From the NCBI RefSeq assembly GCF_017901175.1, contig NZ_CP072793.1, positions 744,001 through 808,000 of the forward strand: 64,000 nt of DNA. Reading direction: 5' to 3'. Source of the DNA: Thiothrix unzii (GTDB lineage Bacteria; Pseudomonadota; Gammaproteobacteria; Thiotrichales; Thiotrichaceae). Below, piece after piece: positions 52,553 to 61,063 of the stretch; within the stretch, counting starts at the first letter, position 1; every line of letters begins with the position of its first letter. The position numbers were made by a program, and so were the translations under genes. The notes under the pieces were generated by a model. That model worked only from the letters and a program-made list of their open reading frames with translations. It ran no database searches and was not told the origin of the DNA.

Positions 52553-54862
52553 ATGCGCACCTTTTCAGTGAGTTTTTTTATCGGCACGCTGCTGTTATTG
52601 CTGCTGCCGCACATGCCTAGCTTAGATGCGCTATTTTGGGGCGTATACCTTGGCGTTGCGTTGCTGTTTAGCGTGGGTTGTGTGGTGTGGCGACGGCGTT
52701 TGCGCTTGCCGCTGGTGTTGCTGCTATCCGGGCTATGGCTGGGTGGTGGTTACGCATTGCACACAGCGGATGGCGTATTAGCCAGTTGGTTGCCGGTGGC
52801 GTGGGAAGGTGAAGATGTGTTGCTAACCGGAACCGTGGCTGACGTGCCTGAGTTGGGGGTGGACGGACTGCATTTTGTGTTTGACGCAGAGCATCCCGCG
52901 TTTAACGGGCGGTTGCGTTTGGCGTGGTATGAGGATGAAACCCCGCCAATGCACGCTGGCGAACGCTGGCAATTGTTGGTGCGCGGCAAACGTCCGCACG
53001 GTTTTCGTAATCCCAACGGGTTTGATTACGAGCAGTGGTTATTTACTCAGCGTATTGGTGGCAGCGGGCATGTGCGTAAATCGACCGAGAATCAGCGATT
53101 AGCCGCCGCTCCGCCTTGGGCAGTGAATGCTTGGCGGCAGAATTTAAAGATGGCGATTGAAACCGCTTTGCCAGATTCGCCCGCGACGGGTTTGGTGCAG
53201 GGTTTGGCGGTGGCTTACACCAAAGCGATTACCCCGGAGCAATGGGCGGTGTTGCGCGATACCGGCACGATTCATTTGCTTGCGATTTCGGGGTTGCACA
53301 TTACGATGGTGGCGGGGCTGGGTATTTTGCCGGTGTGGGGTATTTGGCGGCTATTTCCGGTGTTGTATTTGTGGTTGCCGTTGCGGGTGGCAGCGGGTAT
53401 CGCGGGCGGAGGATTGGCGATTGGATATGCGTTGTTGGCGGGGTTTAATATTCCTACGCAACGCACCCTGTTGATGTTGCTGGTGGTGTTGCTGGGCTTG
53501 GTGTGGCGACGACAAATTCCGTTTAGCGTGACTTTGGCGACGGCGTTGCTGGCGGTGTTATTACTTGACCCGTTGGCTCCCTTGGCGGTGGGGTTTTGGT
53601 TGTCGTTTGTGACAGTGGGATTGTTGGCATGGTTGAGTTTGCGGCAACGGCGTGTGGGTAAAACGGCGGTGGTGTGGATGCAATTGGTATTGTCGTTGGG
53701 CACATTGCCGTTAACTGCTGGATTTTTTGGGATGGTGTCGCTGAGTTCACCAGTGGCAAATTTGTTGGCGATTCCGCTGGTCACGTTTGTGGTCACACCG
53801 TTGGTATTGCTGGGCATTGTATTGGTTGGTTGGTGGTCAACAGCGGCGACGTTGGTGTGGTCGGGTGCGGCGGTATTATTAACTTGGTTAATGGCGGCGT
53901 TGGAATGGTTGGCGGGGTTGCCGTTGGCGGCGGTTTCCATGCCCTTAGTGCCGTTGGTTTGGCTGGGGTTGGCATTGTTGGGTTTTGGGTTATTGTGTGC
54001 GCCACGTGGAATGCCGGGGCGGTGGTTGGGGCTGGTATTGATGTTGCCGATGCTGCTTTATCAACCGGAAAAACCCGCTGCGGGGGCGTTTCGGGCGAGT
54101 GTGTTGGATGTGGGGCAGGGCTTGGCAACAGTGGTGCAAACCGCGCAGCATACCTTGGTGTTCGATACCGGCCCGAAAACTTCCGACAGTTTTGATGCGG
54201 GGGAATTGGTGGTATTGCCATGGTTATACGGGCAAGGTTTGCGCAATGTCGATCGTTTGCTGGTTTCACACGCGGATAATGATCACAGCGGTGGTGCACA
54301 AGCGTTGGTCAACACCATGCCCGTTGGTGACATTTGGGTGGGAACGCCGGATATTTTACCGCAACAGCCAACCGCTTTGTGCGCAGCGGGGCAGCAGTGG
54401 GAATGGGATGGGGTGCAATTTAGCGTGTTGCACCCGTCGCCAGCGTTTCAAGAGCCGCGTGATAATAACCGTTCTTGCGTGTTAAAAGTGAGCAATGCGC
54501 ATCACAGTTTATTATTGACGGCGGATATTGAGCGTCCGGTTGAGCAGTGGTTGCTTAAACAGCGTGCAGATTTGGCGGCAGAAGTACTGTTATTGCCGCA
54601 TCATGGTAGTAAAACTTCATCGAGTCCGGCATTTATCAATGCGGTTGCACCACGTTTGGGTATTGTTACCAGCGGGTATCGCAACCGTTATCATCACCCG
54701 CATCCGTCCGTGACTGCACGTTATGAAGCACGCGGTATAAAATTACTGAATACCGTAAATAGTGGGGAATTGCGTTTGGATTTTCCTGATACAAATGCAG
54801 CGTTTGAGATTCGTGAATGGCGGCAAGTGCAACCGCATATTTGGCAGAAGACCACAATGTAA
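52553..54862 (+). CDS. comEC: DNA internalization protein ComEC/Rec2
   Basis: ComEC forms the inner-membrane channel that carries single-stranded DNA into the cytoplasm during natural transformation. The 769 residues include N-terminal spans, a DUF4131 periplasmic OB-type domain (about 60-180) and the competence membrane domain (about 205-500, with LLAISGLHITMVAGLG). A C-terminal metallo-beta-lactamase-like domain carries the HADNDHSGGA and LLLPHHGSKTSSS metal motifs. All motifs look intact, so the protein should be functional. Confidence 0.94.
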   Translation: MRTFSVSFFIGTLLLLLLPHMPSLDALFWGVYLGVALLFSVGCVVWRRRLRLPLVLLLSGLWLGGGYALHTADGVLASWLPVAWEGEDVLLTGTVADVPELGVDGLHFVFDAEHPAFNGRLRLAWYEDETPPMHAGERWQLLVRGKRPHGFRNPNGFDYEQWLFTQRIGGSGHVRKSTENQRLAAAPPWAVNAWRQNLKMAIETALPDSPATGLVQGLAVAYTKAITPEQWAVLRDTGTIHLLAISGLHITMVAGLGILPVWGIWRLFPVLYLWLPLRVAAGIAGGGLAIGYALLAGFNIPTQRTLLMLLVVLLGLVWRRQIPFSVTLATALLAVLLLDPLAPLAVGFWLSFVTVGLLAWLSLRQRRVGKTAVVWMQLVLSLGTLPLTAGFFGMVSLSSPVANLLAIPLVTFVVTPLVLLGIVLVGWWSTAATLVWSGAAVLLTWLMAALEWLAGLPLAAVSMPLVPLVWLGLALLGFGLLCAPRGMPGRWLGLVLMLPMLLYQPEKPAAGAFRASVLDVGQGLATVVQTAQHTLVFDTGPKTSDSFDAGELVVLPWLYGQGLRNVDRLLVSHADNDHSGGAQALVNTMPVGDIWVGTPDILPQQPTALCAAGQQWEWDGVQFSVLHPSPAFQEPRDNNRSCVLKVSNAHHSLLLTADIERPVEQWLLKQRADLAAEVLLLPHHGSKTSSSPAFINAVAPRLGIVTSGYRNRYHHPHPSVTARYEARGIKLLNTVNSGELRLDFPDTNAAFEIREWRQVQPHIWQKTTM

Positions 54863-54963: not shown

Positions 54964-57288
54964 ATGAATTTGGAAGAAAAGGACATCGAAATATTCAAGA
55001 AATTGGATTCCAATGTTTATCTCACATTTAATGATAAGCAAGCATTGAAATCCGGCTTGGATGAGCTGGATCGGCGTTTACAGGAGCGTGAGCGGCGTTT
55101 GCAGGAGTTTTCCGGGGTGCTGTTGGAAAAGGATGGGCATGTGCGGGTGCGTGATGCACGCATTGACGAGCGTGACAGGCGGGTGGCGGAGCTGGCGCAG
55201 TTACTCGCAGAAAAGGAACAGATTTTACTCAAAATCAGTCAGGCTACCGCTGAAAAAGACACCGTATTGCGGATTCGCGATGAGCATTTAAGTAGCAAAG
55301 ATAAAACCATTCACCAGCGCGATGCAGCGTTAGCCGAGCGTGAAGCACGGCTTAAAATTGTCGAACAAAATCTGGTCAATTACGAAAAATTATTGCAGGA
55401 AAAAGAGCTGCAAATCCAAGCGCGTGACCGCAGCATGGAGGATAAAGACCGCTCCTTAATGCGCATTGATCAGGCGATTCAAAGTAAAGATAAATTACTC
55501 CAAAGCCGCGACGACAGCATTAGTAAAAAAGATCAGCAATTGCTGGAGCGCGAAGCTCTGTTGCAAGAGCGTACCCGGCAGACGCTTGAACAGGAGCGGA
55601 TGCTTAAAGAGCGCGATAAACATTTAACCGAACGCGATACTCAAGTGGCGGAACGTGACCGCCAACTCGCGGCGCGTGACGAGCACATCAACCTTGTCAG
55701 CAAGCAGTTGCAAAACCGCGATACGCAATTGGATGAACGCGATCAGCAAATTCATAGCCGCGAACGCTTGCTGGCGGAAAAAGAAAACTTGCTGCAAGAG
55801 CGCGATCAAACCCTAGGCATTCAGCAGCAGCAGCTTGAAAAGCGTGACCATACTTTAAGCGAACGTGACCAACAACTCAGTGAGCGTGACCGTACCGTTG
55901 CCGAGCGTGATGCGGAATTACGCGCCCGTGAAGAAGCGATTCGCAACCGTGACCAACAAGGTCTGGAATTTCTGCAAACCATCCGCGAGTTAGAAACGCA
56001 CTTGCAAGAACGCGATGGGCAGATCAGTGAGCGTGACCGCCAGTTGTCATTACGCGATGAGCGCATTAATAAAGCTGATGAAGATTTGCGTGACCGCGAT
56101 ACCCGTTTGGGCAGTCGTGACCGCACCGTGGAAGAGCGCGACGCGCAAATGTCAGAGCGTGACCGGCGCATTAAAGAACGCGATATTTCCCTGCGTGAAC
56201 GTGACACCCGCATTAGTGGGCAAGATTTGCAACTGCGGGAGCGCGATAAACAGTTACAACTGCGTGATTCGCAAATCCAAAGCCGCGATGTCACCATCGG
56301 CGAGCGTGACCACAGCCTCAAGGAACGTGACAGCCACGTTTCCCAGCTCAATGCGCAAATGCAGGAGCGTGACGAAACCATTCACGACCGCGATTCCCTG
56401 ATTACTGAGCGCAATGCGGTGATTCAAGGGCGCGACGAAACCATTGGTGAGCGCGATTTACAACTGGCGGCGCGTGATTTGAGTGTGCAGCAGCGCGACA
56501 CCAGCGTGCAGCAACGCGATGTTAATATTGAAGGTTTGACCCTGCAAATTCACGAGCGCGATAAAAGCCTGCAACAGCGTGATAAAGAAATCGCCGCCCG
56601 CGATACCCAAGTGCGCGATTTGCAACTTGAAGTGCATTTGCGTGACCAAAGCGTGGCGGAACGCGATGTGCAATTGCAGTTACGCGATCAAACTGTGCAA
56701 GACCGCGATGAACAGCTTGATGTGCGCGATGAAACCGTGGCGGAACGCGATGCCAGCATTGCGGAGCGCGACGCACAATTAGAGCAGCGCGATTTACACA
56801 TCCAGAAAAAAGAAGAAGCGTTACAAGAGCGTGACCATCAAATCAAAACCCGCGATACGACGGTGGCGATGCGTGACCTCAGTTTGAATGAGCGTGACGG
56901 GCAACTAGCAAAGCGTGACGGGCAGTTAGCCGAACGCGATGCACAGATCAAAAACCGCGATGTCAGCCTGCATGACCGTGATCAAACCATCATCGCCAAA
57001 GAAGGCCACATTCGCCGCCGCGATGAGCGCATTCAAGAATTAACCTTACACATCCAGCATTTAGAAAACCTCTCGAAAGAACAAATGCAGCAATTGCAGC
57101 AGCGCGATGAAGCGTTACGCCAGCGCGATTTAATCGTTGCCCAGCGTGACCGTCAAATCGACAAGCTCGACAAAAGCGTGGTCAAGTACGCGGCTGGTGC
57201 GCAAAGCATCTTTATTAAAGGTGCGGTAACGGGGTTGCTGGCGGCGTTTGCGTTTGTGTTGGGGCTGCGGTTGTTGGCGATTCTCTAA
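54964..57288 (+). CDS. Giant Glu-Arg-Asp heptad-repeat protein with C-terminal membrane anchor
   Basis: The 774 residues are almost entirely a 7-residue repeat of the form E-R-D-x-x-hydrophobic-x, from about residue 35 to about 735, roughly 100 copies. Where I checked, imperfect stretches (for example RDQQGLEFLQ) keep the register in multiples of seven. Only one hydrophobic residue per heptad is conserved, with Arg and Asp fixed beside it, so this is a highly charged helix unlike a standard leucine coiled coil. The end is a membrane span (about 746-774, KGAVTGLLAAFAFVLGLRLL) with almost no tail. There is no signal peptide, so the rod is probably cytoplasmic and tail-anchored. No family is recognised. 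Confidence 0.85.
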   Translation: MNLEEKDIEIFKKLDSNVYLTFNDKQALKSGLDELDRRLQERERRLQEFSGVLLEKDGHVRVRDARIDERDRRVAELAQLLAEKEQILLKISQATAEKDTVLRIRDEHLSSKDKTIHQRDAALAEREARLKIVEQNLVNYEKLLQEKELQIQARDRSMEDKDRSLMRIDQAIQSKDKLLQSRDDSISKKDQQLLEREALLQERTRQTLEQERMLKERDKHLTERDTQVAERDRQLAARDEHINLVSKQLQNRDTQLDERDQQIHSRERLLAEKENLLQERDQTLGIQQQQLEKRDHTLSERDQQLSERDRTVAERDAELRAREEAIRNRDQQGLEFLQTIRELETHLQERDGQISERDRQLSLRDERINKADEDLRDRDTRLGSRDRTVEERDAQMSERDRRIKERDISLRERDTRISGQDLQLRERDKQLQLRDSQIQSRDVTIGERDHSLKERDSHVSQLNAQMQERDETIHDRDSLITERNAVIQGRDETIGERDLQLAARDLSVQQRDTSVQQRDVNIEGLTLQIHERDKSLQQRDKEIAARDTQVRDLQLEVHLRDQSVAERDVQLQLRDQTVQDRDEQLDVRDETVAERDASIAERDAQLEQRDLHIQKKEEALQERDHQIKTRDTTVAMRDLSLNERDGQLAKRDGQLAERDAQIKNRDVSLHDRDQTIIAKEGHIRRRDERIQELTLHIQHLENLSKEQMQQLQQRDEALRQRDLIVAQRDRQIDKLDKSVVKYAAGAQSIFIKGAVTGLLAAFAFVLGLRLLAIL

Positions 57289-57397: not shown

Positions 57398-57460
57398 CTA
57401 TACTTAACCTCGTTCAATAAACAATATCAGCGTCCTATGATTTGCGAGGGATTTGCTATT

Positions 57461-58414
57461 ATGCAAAACAAAAATCTTTTTGTTTTTGGTAGCCTATTAA
57501 TTTTGAGTGGGTGTTTTGGTGGAAGTTCCAGTGGAAGTTCTAGTGGTAATGGATTATCTGTTGCTTTAACGCCGGAAAATGCTGCCACTGCTGCTCAACT
57601 TTCTATGGCTGCGCCAAAAGCGGTATCAGGTTTATTAGAAGGAATGATTGAAGATGTTCCTGATGAGGTGTTTACAGACATTGAAACACGGACAACTAAT
57701 CGGATGGCAGGTATTGCCGCCGCTATGGCACCAACGCGTGAAGAGGAAGCTTGTAGCCACGGCGGTAAGGTGATCGTTGAGGAAAGCGACACGACATTTA
57801 CTATTACCTTGGAAAACTGCACTGAGACGGAAAGCGTGGCGGCAACAGACACGACCCCAGCTTATTCCTCGACAGACATCAGTAATGGTTCAATTACCTT
57901 TTCTGACAGCACGATGGATGGCTACCCAGATGCTGAAAGCGTGACGATTGATTTGCGCGAATCATTTACCGATACCTTAGGTAAAGAAGAAAACTCAACT
58001 GAAAAAGGTTCATTTGTGACGGGTTACAGTGACACGGGATATGCGATTAAAAATATGAATATGAGTACCCGTTATTGGGGAAGAGATTCGGTAAATTCTC
58101 CCGTCTACGATTATACCATCGCTGCTCAAGATTTTAATGTAGTCATTGATGCTACGACGGATCAACAAACATTTAGTGGTATTGTGACTGCAACGGGTAC
58201 AGATGAGGAGGGAGATGCTATGTTAGGCGGTTCTTTCCGAGTGGATACCGTTGCTCCAATCAATAATGATCAAACCCAAGGTGAATACAAAATCACCGGC
58301 GCGGGAAATTCCAGTGTGATTACCCGCCTTGACCCCGCAGGTATTTATGTGGAAATCAATGGGGCATCTGTTGAATTCCATGCTTGGGATGATGTTGATG
58401 ATTATTTTGATTGA
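57461..58414 (+). CDS. Lipoprotein of unknown function
   Basis: The 317 residues start with a lipoprotein signal (LILSGC, lipidated Cys18) followed by FGGSSSGSSSG, a flexible Ser-Gly linker. The mature domain is acidic, rich in Thr, Asp and Ser, and predicted to be mostly beta strands (ITFSDSTMDGYPDAESVTID, FSGIVTATGTD). Two Cys (EEACSHGG and LENCTET) could pair. GAGGG before ATG 57461 decides the start over an ATG eight codons earlier. No family is recognised. It begins a plus-strand run with two secreted proteins and an Lnt homolog. Confidence 0.7.
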   Translation: MQNKNLFVFGSLLILSGCFGGSSSGSSSGNGLSVALTPENAATAAQLSMAAPKAVSGLLEGMIEDVPDEVFTDIETRTTNRMAGIAAAMAPTREEEACSHGGKVIVEESDTTFTITLENCTETESVAATDTTPAYSSTDISNGSITFSDSTMDGYPDAESVTIDLRESFTDTLGKEENSTEKGSFVTGYSDTGYAIKNMNMSTRYWGRDSVNSPVYDYTIAAQDFNVVIDATTDQQTFSGIVTATGTDEEGDAMLGGSFRVDTVAPINNDQTQGEYKITGAGNSSVITRLDPAGIYVEINGASVEFHAWDDVDDYFD

Positions 58415-58422
58415 GGTGCGTT

Positions 58423-58929
58423 ATGTTTTATAGGAACACAGTAAAGCGGTTTATTCTGATTTTTATGATGATGGTTATTACCCTTTTGTCTTTTGATACA
58501 TTTGCGGTACCTTCCGGCGGCTATGAAGGGAGCAGTGACTCTCGGTATTTTAAAGCCATGTGCAGTACAATGGTTTCTGATCTTAAGAACGGTGGTGTTG
58601 CTTTTATCAGTGATGGGTTTAGTCATAATTTAGGTTACTGCCTGATAGACGCAAGGGATAGGAGCATACGGCTTGTGAGAAATTACACGAACTGCGACAT
58701 TCTGGAATTGGCTGTCGCAGAATCATGCAGTGGAATATGGGGGTTTATGGGTGGGGATCATAAAGCGTGTGTTAATGAGAGAAGTAAAAAAATAGGACGA
58801 AACCCAGGATGGGTTTATAATTTTGGATACTGCCATACAGCCTGTCCTAGTATAAATCCTCCGGTTTTAAATGCACCTCCAGTCAATCTTCCGCCTTGTG
58901 GTTTGCATGTGATTCCACCTGATATTTAG
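58423..58929 (+). CDS. Cysteine-rich secreted protein, paralog A
   Basis: The 168 residues have a signal peptide (about 1-29, ending TFA) and a mature domain with eight cysteines. The segment CDILELAVAESC, then WGFMGGDHKAC, closely matches the next gene. Six cysteines are shared between the two, enough for three disulfides. A proline-rich tail (SINPPVLNAPPVNLPP) is unique to this copy. GAGGTGCG precedes ATG 58423. Function is unknown; the size suggests a small periplasmic or secreted binding domain. Confidence 0.65.
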   Translation: MFYRNTVKRFILIFMMMVITLLSFDTFAVPSGGYEGSSDSRYFKAMCSTMVSDLKNGGVAFISDGFSHNLGYCLIDARDRSIRLVRNYTNCDILELAVAESCSGIWGFMGGDHKACVNERSKKIGRNPGWVYNFGYCHTACPSINPPVLNAPPVNLPPCGLHVIPPDI

Positions 58930-59026
58930 TGGGATTGGATGGTTTTTCCACTGAGATAAACTGTTTGTCATGTGGATTTGATAGTGGTTGCTACGCCATT
59001 AATGGTTAAGTAGGAATAAATTCGTA

Positions 59027-59389
59027 ATGAAAAAGCTTATTTTGCACGGATTATCCGTTATTTTGTTTTTATTGCCACTCATAGCCGTTGGCGGCGGTGG
59101 CTATCAGCGAAGTGATGATGCGCGAACGGTACGTAATAATTGTGGGAGCTATTTGGATACTTGGGACATTACAGGGTTGGCGCGTTGCCTTGGGCGGGTA
59201 AAGCGTGACCACTTGCCGAATAAAAGTATCTGCGACGTGGTGGACATTGCTGCTGGTGAGGCGTGTGCTAATCGCTGGGGATTTCTTGGGCAAGACCATA
59301 AAAATTGTAAGTACAGCAGGAATGGCGGTGGGTTCATTTATAACTACAGTCTTGTATGGTGGGATGAACTTGGTGCGAATTGTAATTAG
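59027..59389 (+). CDS. Cysteine-rich secreted protein, paralog B
   Basis: The 120 residues have a signal peptide (about 1-21) and a mature domain starting GGGGYQRSDDAR, like the GGYEGSSDSR start of the preceding protein. The shared core CDVVDIAAGEAC, then WGFLGQDHKNC, has identical spacing between its three cysteines in both proteins. It lacks the proline-rich tail. The stop is 15 bases before the Lnt homolog. Tandem duplication with divergence is the simplest origin. Confidence 0.65.
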   Translation: MKKLILHGLSVILFLLPLIAVGGGGYQRSDDARTVRNNCGSYLDTWDITGLARCLGRVKRDHLPNKSICDVVDIAAGEACANRWGFLGQDHKNCKYSRNGGGFIYNYSLVWWDELGANCN

Positions 59390-59404: not shown

Positions 59405-61063
59405 ATGAAAAAGAAACCACCGTTGATGGCTTGTATTGTCTCGGTTTCAACAAGTTGCTTCGGTGGTAGTTCAGGTGATAGCTCTGGTATTAATTCATGG
59501 AGATGGTTGGGGTATCTATTACTAGCGGCACTACTGTACGGCTTGTCTTTTCCGTCGTGGGAAGGTGTTGAGTTATTCCCATTAGCGTGGATTTGCTTGC
59601 TGCCGTTGCTGTCGCCACCGATGGTTGCTCTCCCGTTTTGGCGTTACAGCGGCATTGCTTTGCTGTTTGGGGTGTTGGGTAGTCTGATTGCAGGGCATTG
59701 GACGCTGGGGCATAGCCTTGGATTTGGGATATTGGCAATCATTTGGCACGGGTTAATCGTTGCCCCGCCGTTGTGGTTTTTCCATTGGTTGCTGAAACGG
59801 TGCAGTTACGCGATGGCGTTGCTGTTATTGCCATTTGTCTGGACAGCGTGGGAGTGGATTGCTGCCAATAACCAACCTTTTTTTTGGGGGGCATTGGGGG
59901 CAACCCAAGCTAATCAAACGTGGTTGGTGCAATTCGTGGATTTGACCGGGGTGTGGGGCTTGAGTTTTTGGCTGGTGGCATTAAATGCTGCCTTGGCTTA
60001 CGCTTTATACCGCTATGCTGCCTTGGAAAAACGTCTGTTATGGCAGCGGTTTTCCTTAATCCTCACACTTTTTTTGTTGCCGCCGATACTGTATGGGCAG
60101 TGGCGCATCCATACGTTGCCATGGCAACCCACAGATATGGTGCAGTTAAGCCTATTACAGCCGAATGCTTCAGAAAAAGCGGGGCAAACAGCCCTTGCCA
60201 CACTGATGGATAATCTGGATAAAACCAAGGTGGATATGGCGGTATGGCCTGAATCCATTTTTGAGTCAATGCCTTTCCACGATAAGACATTTAATGAAAA
60301 TATTCAGCGTTGGAATATTCCAGTGATGATGGTGTTTATTGCTACCCAATCCAATATGCACCGCCCGGATTTCGTCGATGCCTATGGTGCTGCTATTATT
60401 ATGGACAATACGGTATTGGGGCGAATCTTAAAAGGGCCAGTATTGAGTTTATTAGAGCCACATTACCGTAAACAACGCTTAGTTCCCCATTCTGAATTGC
60501 AGTTAGTGCCTGACAGTATTTTATGGCGGTGGTCGGCATTACGGGAAGTTTTACCTTCCCGTATGTTGCATACCACCAAAAGTAGTCGACCTTTACGTTT
60601 TATCTCAAGGACAGGTCAGGAACACCGTTTATCCCCACTGATTTGTTATGAAGCCGTTTTTCCCCATTTGGCAGCTCAAGCGGTACGTGATGGGGCGGAA
60701 GCACTGTTTGTGTTAGCCAATGACATCCATTTTGGCGGGACAGAGGCATGGCAAGCTGCATCTTTTGCGCGTTTGCGGGCGATTGAAACCCGCCGCCCAG
60801 TAGTGCGAACCAGTACGTCCGGGGTTGTGGGCGTGATTGATGCCTTTGGTGAGTGGCAGATGATGGATAATCACCGGGTATTTGGGGGATTTTCGGCATC
60901 CTTGGGGTTGATTGCCACACCACCGACGGTCTATGTGCAGTGGATTGATCTACTGCCGAAGGTGTGTTGTGCAGTTGTGTTACTGGCGGGAGTCACTTGC
61001 CGGAGAAAGGTAAGTGCGGCGAATAAAAGTTTTAATTTTATCAATGGGACTAGCGTAGACTGA
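59405..61063 (+). CDS. lnt: Apolipoprotein N-acyltransferase homolog with lipoprotein-like N-terminus
   Basis: Lnt adds the third acyl chain to lipoproteins in the inner membrane. The 552 residues contain about six N-terminal spans, then a nitrilase domain with Glu283 (VWPESIFE), Lys356 (YRKQRLVPHSE) and Cys414 (LICYEAVFP), matching the catalytic triad. The first 30 residues are unusual: they end CFGGSSGDSSG with the Cys at position 18, like the lipoprotein at 57461, and lead straight into the first membrane span. Lipidation is uncertain because the lipobox (STSC) is poor. Being next to lipoprotein genes rather than ybeX or corC, it may be a specialised second copy. Confidence 0.82.
   Translation: MKKKPPLMACIVSVSTSCFGGSSGDSSGINSWRWLGYLLLAALLYGLSFPSWEGVELFPLAWICLLPLLSPPMVALPFWRYSGIALLFGVLGSLIAGHWTLGHSLGFGILAIIWHGLIVAPPLWFFHWLLKRCSYAMALLLLPFVWTAWEWIAANNQPFFWGALGATQANQTWLVQFVDLTGVWGLSFWLVALNAALAYALYRYAALEKRLLWQRFSLILTLFLLPPILYGQWRIHTLPWQPTDMVQLSLLQPNASEKAGQTALATLMDNLDKTKVDMAVWPESIFESMPFHDKTFNENIQRWNIPVMMVFIATQSNMHRPDFVDAYGAAIIMDNTVLGRILKGPVLSLLEPHYRKQRLVPHSELQLVPDSILWRWSALREVLPSRMLHTTKSSRPLRFISRTGQEHRLSPLICYEAVFPHLAAQAVRDGAEALFVLANDIHFGGTEAWQAASFARLRAIETRRPVVRTSTSGVVGVIDAFGEWQMMDNHRVFGGFSASLGLIATPPTVYVQWIDLLPKVCCAVVLLAGVTCRRKVSAANKSFNFINGTSVD

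Follow-up and report, generated by a model that had tools for sequence, protein, structure and literature searches.

A tail-anchored heptad-rod protein of near-constant length in Thiothrix and related genera

Described coils and rods

In eukaryotes, much work has been done on long coiled coils that serve as spacers of fixed length. The tail-anchored golgins, giantin and its kin, possess a short head, a long parallel cytoplasmic coil of conserved length and a C-terminal transmembrane anchor, and a coiled-coil length that is conserved without matching conservation of sequence is considered the mark of a spacer (PMC5082667). Charge-flanked heptad coils were described in plant BBR/BPC proteins by Wanke et al. 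in 2011 as alanine-zipper-like; these coils were shown to dimerise in parallel orientation in planta, and bacterial examples were also noted (PMC3037368). In sulfur-storing gammaproteobacteria, a partly helical structural protein, SgpD, is found in the sulfur-globule envelope of Allochromatium, where it is periplasmic and carries a signal peptide (PMC10386293). Here, we describe a 774-residue protein, termed rod A, encoded in a 64,000-nucleotide stretch of the Thiothrix unzii genome (the window; contig NZ_CP072793.1, positions 744,001 to 808,000, forward strand).

Rod A is similar to the group II alanine zippers of BBR/BPC proteins in its charge-stabilised heptads, with charged residues alternating around a small core. 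Where the plant coils place a basic core residue after an acidic one in every heptad, rod A has R/K in 80/101 heptads and E directly before it in about 44. It differs in that alanine rarely precedes the aliphatic residue (6/101, with Q, T or S instead), leaving the invariant alanine of the plant coils absent, and in its length of 102 heptads, where BBR/BPC coils have a few. The coil part of Pfam GAGA_bind (PF06217) matches rod A at 2.6e-16, above the cut-off, and RNase_Y_N (PF12072) matches at 64 bits against a cut-off of 32. Both matches come through the coil alone. Rod A lacks the pentacysteine DNA-binding domain of GAGA_bind factors because it has no Cys, and its similarity to RNase Y, another charged coiled coil, is one of coil composition: rod A has no KH or HD domain match, and its anchor is C-terminal whereas that of RNase Y is N-terminal.

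All NCBIfam matches to rod A are below cut-off. Among solved structures in the PDB, a set expected to include crescentin, no chain matches rod A at E 0.1 or better. Crescentin and FilP are likewise long bacterial coiled-coil rods with short ends, but rod A differs in lacking a PDB sequence match, in its membrane anchor and in its single unbroken register. The golgins are eukaryotic and share no homology with rod A, and their many breaks and divergent sequences contrast with its unbroken register and conserved sequence. SgpD was rejected as a relative because its signal peptide and periplasmic location (PMC10386293) do not agree with a signal-less, tail-anchored protein. A literature search found no described Thiothrix coiled-coil protein of this kind. 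The sequence-only reading from which this work started had recognised no described family, which holds for the whole protein; its view that the core is not that of a standard coiled coil is correct for the one core layer occupied by arginine but overlooks the charge-flanked coil type described in 2011 (PMC3037368). The coil type is thus already known. As far as these tools show, no description of the protein family exists, and an unbroken register of 102 heptads joined to a fixed length and a tail anchor is a new combination.

Architecture and heptad register

Rod A contains a single hydrophobic segment, located at the extreme C-terminus, and has no N-terminal signal, which is characteristic of tail-anchored proteins (Table 1). 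The best 19-residue hydropathy value is 2.24, at residues 755-773, with values elsewhere at or below 0.61; together with the list of open reading frames, this confirms the gene, coordinates and C-terminal hydrophobic anchor proposed earlier. A conserved FIKG precedes the anchor, and residue 769 is R/K. The head carries the motif K-[LI]-[DE]-x-N-x-[YF]-L-T-x-x-D-[KR]-Q, which alignment of the two heads shows in common with a soluble paralog in the same genome (paralog B), and is predicted with low confidence to form a helix at residues 4-14, a loop and a long helix from residue 22 onward. A promoter and terminator scan of the sequence gave no signal above shuffles.

Table 1. Features of the rod A locus and of paralog B. 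Coordinates are positions in the window, except for paralog B, where they refer to the locus named.
Feature	Coordinates	Strand	Basis or remark
comEC-like gene, directly upstream of rod A across a gap of ~100 bp	52553..54862	+	Adjacency conserved in Thiothrix only
Rod A gene (tail-anchored heptad-rod protein, 774 aa)	54964..57288	+	ORF, orthologs, dN/dS
N-terminal head, residues 1-31	54964..55056	+	A/B head alignment, structure prediction
Rod, residues 32-742, 102 heptads in one register	55057..57189	+	Register analysis
Length-variable stretch, residues ~40-115	55081..55308	+	Ortholog alignments
Length-invariant part, residues 116-774	55309..57285	+	Complete orthologs, genera g1 (Thiothrix), g7 and g8
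Conserved node, residues 133-151 (VEQNLVNYEKLLQEKELQI)	55360..55416	+	Both core layers hydrophobic; V133/Y140 non-R in all compared genera
Conserved node, residues 333-345 (GLEFLQTIRELET)	55960..55998	+	d layer hydrophobic at 336, 343
Conserved node, residues 686-702 (RDERIQELTLHIQHLEN)	57019..57069	+	d layer Leu at 693, 700
C-terminal membrane anchor, residues 753-774	57220..57285	+	Hydropathy, conservation
Paralog B	L002, 706-2415	-	Also loci L122, L123, L125, L126

From residue 32 to about residue 742, the heptad register continues with zero skips, a hallmark of coiled-coil spacers. Of the 64 Arg-Asp pairs, 62 are in one register, compared with at most 8 in 1000 residue shuffles, and the aliphatic position is L, I, V or M in 98/102 heptads, the exceptions being T95, T207, G333 and S704. 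These counts bear out the earlier observation of an Arg-Asp pair every seven residues with one hydrophobic residue per heptad. The accompanying description, about 100 unbroken E-R-D heptads, is accurate for the register, which spans 102 heptads, but not for the literal motif: E precedes R in only about 44, so the register rather than E-R-D is the invariant feature.

The residue types at the exceptions point to the orientation of the core. Position 1, directly after the R position (position 0), is D/E in 88/101 heptads. At position 0 the non-basic residues consist largely of L, Y, I, V, F and Q, and at position 1 T, Q and N make up most of the non-acidic ones. The mostly aliphatic exceptions make position 0 core position d, giving the assignment a = L/I/V, d = R or aliphatic, and e = D. 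The same residue types disfavour the alternative in which the aliphatic residue would occupy d and Asp would occupy a.

AlphaFold2 models full-length rod A as helices with poor overall confidence (pTM 0.23) and with breaks at residues 180-189, 364-443 and 573-586. A 121-residue slice covering the largest break (residues 345-465) is modelled as a single helix with very high mean confidence (pLDDT 96), indicating that the 364-443 break is a long-chain artefact, and it was rejected as a real hinge. A composition count finds no Pro, Cys or Trp in residues 32-742.

Length constancy, distribution and conserved nodes

Rod A is present in 16/16 Thiothrix genomes searched. In 14 of the 15 intact copies it is exactly 774 aa long and aligns without gaps, and the remaining copy has 764 aa; length and register thus do not vary freely between close strains. 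The copy in a Candidatus Thiothrix singaporensis metagenome-assembled genome (MAG) is split by frame changes, which may be sequencing errors or mark a pseudogene. Within the same family, genera g7 and g8 also carry rod A, as does a single g6 MAG; all 34 genomes of genera g2-g5 lack it. Rod A of T. eikelboomii (genus g8) again has exactly 774 aa, at 55% identity. Among complete orthologs, length changes are confined to residues 40-115 and the first few residues, with none after 115. The exception to this spacer-like conservation of length is the g6 copy (G052), a distant sequence that lies across two contigs and has a minimum length of about 1017 aa. In a quick PurL species tree, unfinished and with poor outgroups, rod A presence clusters in g1, g7, g8 and the one g6 MAG.

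The wider survey covered an evenly drawn class sample (369 genomes) and a phylum sample (398 genomes) at E 1e-10. Only four matches lie outside the family, and the two examined are convergent coiled coils. The head motif has no other occurrence in the class sample, and a plasmid collection gave no match at 1e-20. Two kinds of similar sequence were set aside: a glycosyltransferase with ERD stretches (L004), which has an unrelated head and no rod, and the class matches in f52 (L098 and L099), which have an N-terminal transmembrane segment and MotA-like neighbours and belong to a different family with similar heptads. The latter (L098, 829-2934; L099, 1030-2883) represent a gammaproteobacterial family that combines an N-terminal membrane segment with a long ERD-like coiled coil and adjoins a MotA-like gene.

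Over Thiothrix, rod A has a dN/dS of about 0.07, a rough estimate because dS is saturated in a third of pairs, and its mean column identity of 83% is high along the full length. The neighbouring comEC, at 68% identity, has a dN/dS of 0.15 and 2.3 indels per pair; the 774-aa Thiothrix copies of rod A have zero. The proposal of selection for one continuous rod is therefore upheld by the constant length, the lack of indels after residue 115, the low dN/dS, the absence of proline and the helical slice.

Paralog B, which may serve as a natural control for the length of rod A, is a 569-aa protein in T. unzii that carries the head motif of rod A, lacks a membrane anchor and is conserved at its C-terminal end. 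Its gene adjoins rpoH in Thiothrix and, in g8, has rpoH on one side and an hrcA-like gene on the other, neighbours that we take to be RpoH and HrcA by eye from their sequences. It ranges from 373 to 681 aa in Thiothrix and reaches about 900 aa in g8 open frames. The gaps between copies are whole heptads (7, 56, 63, 91, 98 or 112 residues) apart from one of 110, and the head is missing in several species, including some Thiothrix. The constancy of rod A is informative because paralog B shows that such rods can change length in these genomes.

The departures from arginine at position 0 are also conserved. All 17 non-R sites (17/17) are common to two genera (Fisher p = 2e-16), occupying the same 17/89 heptads in Thiothrix as in the T. 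eikelboomii group, where two to four further exceptions occur. Because these exceptions recur at the same sites across genera, rod A has fixed axial addresses. Clear clusters occur at residues 133-151, 333-345 and 686-702, and the segments around 140-151, 336-344 and 686-700 are near-invariant.

The comEC-like gene is probably not a functional partner of rod A, given that the two genes are neighbours only in Thiothrix. The lol-comEC-rodA block of T. fructosivorans is found in a record titled plasmid pTfr446 (446 kb; L088); since it carries this block, that replicon may be a chromid or misnamed. Two small adjoining ORFs (169 and 120 aa) at window positions 58420-59389 both begin with a hydrophobic leader and resemble each other in the segments GGY, SDxR and WGFxGxDHK; a Pfam search of both gave no match, and they possibly form a duplicated secreted family. 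An apolipoprotein N-acyltransferase-like gene follows at 59405-61063, with a partial nitrilase match only (residues 402-498). Its product starts with CFGGSSGDSSG, an unusual leader of lipoprotein type similar to that of the upstream lipoprotein ORF at 57437-58414.

Possible roles of the rod

We lean towards rod A being a parallel dimeric, tail-anchored cytoplasmic spacer or tether; its near-identical length between species suggests such a role inside the cell. Rod A would be anchored in the inner membrane by its tail, and its cytoplasmic part would form a single parallel coiled coil without interruption, most probably as a homodimer, with a length of about 105 nm when fully extended (711 residues at 0.1485 nm). 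Aliphatic layers at a would alternate with arginine layers at d. Each Arg(d) probably leans to Asp e' of the partner helix, a geometry taken from general coiled-coil knowledge, forming a salt-bridge ladder that may fix both register and stiffness. The 17 fixed d sites with a non-basic, mostly aliphatic residue may act as nodes for nucleation, flexing or binding. The rod would position the small hairpin head at its N-terminus a defined distance away from the inner membrane, or tether the ligand of the head there, and paralog B, in which this head sits on a rod of variable length, may share that ligand or pair with rod A. Several observations count against this reading. The full-chain AlphaFold2 model is poor and contains breaks, of which the slice accounts for the largest. 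Sequence conservation exceeds the needs of a pure spacer. The g6 copy and the variable first 115 residues argue against a fixed length. Rod A has no conserved operon partner outside Thiothrix. Because coiled coils as a class are less variable in length than other regions, a constant length does not by itself prove a ruler.

Rod A could instead be a membrane-attached filament former resembling intermediate filaments or crescentin, assembling laterally and end to end into a cortical filament or mesh, with its length set by lattice packing and not by the distance to a partner. Crescentin (PMC10873595) and FilP (PMC6599971) are bacterial precedents for coiled-coil filament formers, and the long rod with short ends, the high identity throughout, the nodes at fixed axial sites and a soluble paralog with the same head that could co-polymerise are all consistent with a filament. 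However, the long-range charge periodicity that drives staggered packing is absent from rod A (p = 0.28), no solved structure matches it at E 0.1, and a tail anchor is atypical of filament formers, making this alternative unlikely. Less likely again is a membrane-scaffold stalk that binds partners at its nodes rather than its head, with selection keeping node spacing: the sharing of every non-basic d site between both genera and the near-invariant segments argue for it, but each node spans only a few residues and may simply be a site where dimers nucleate. A low-complexity slippage product without length-dependent function is highly improbable and is refuted for rod A by the ortholog comparison, since, despite the strong protein-level repeat and the whole-heptad variation of paralog B, the gene contains only two weak DNA tandem arrays of about two copies each, and the absence of indels after residue 115 across genera, the low dN/dS and the retention of exceptions at the same sites all oppose it.

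For rod A as a spacer or tether, the tail-anchored golgins would be the nearest functional likeness, by analogy of C-terminal anchor, parallel rod and small distal head. A bolder and more tentative possibility is that rod A is a bacterial golgin counterpart: a stiff ruler in the cytoplasm, about 100 nm long and bearing fixed axial addresses, that arose in the Thiothrix-Thiolinea lineage and sets the distance of a cellular body from the inner membrane. Candidate bodies would include the nucleoid, a storage body, the septum or a partner structure to which paralog B contributes. If this is true, the same residue count across genera, set against a paralog in the same genome that drifts by heptads, would provide a clean natural experiment in length selection, and sulfur-oxidising filamentous bacteria would possess a previously unrecognised distance-setting structure.
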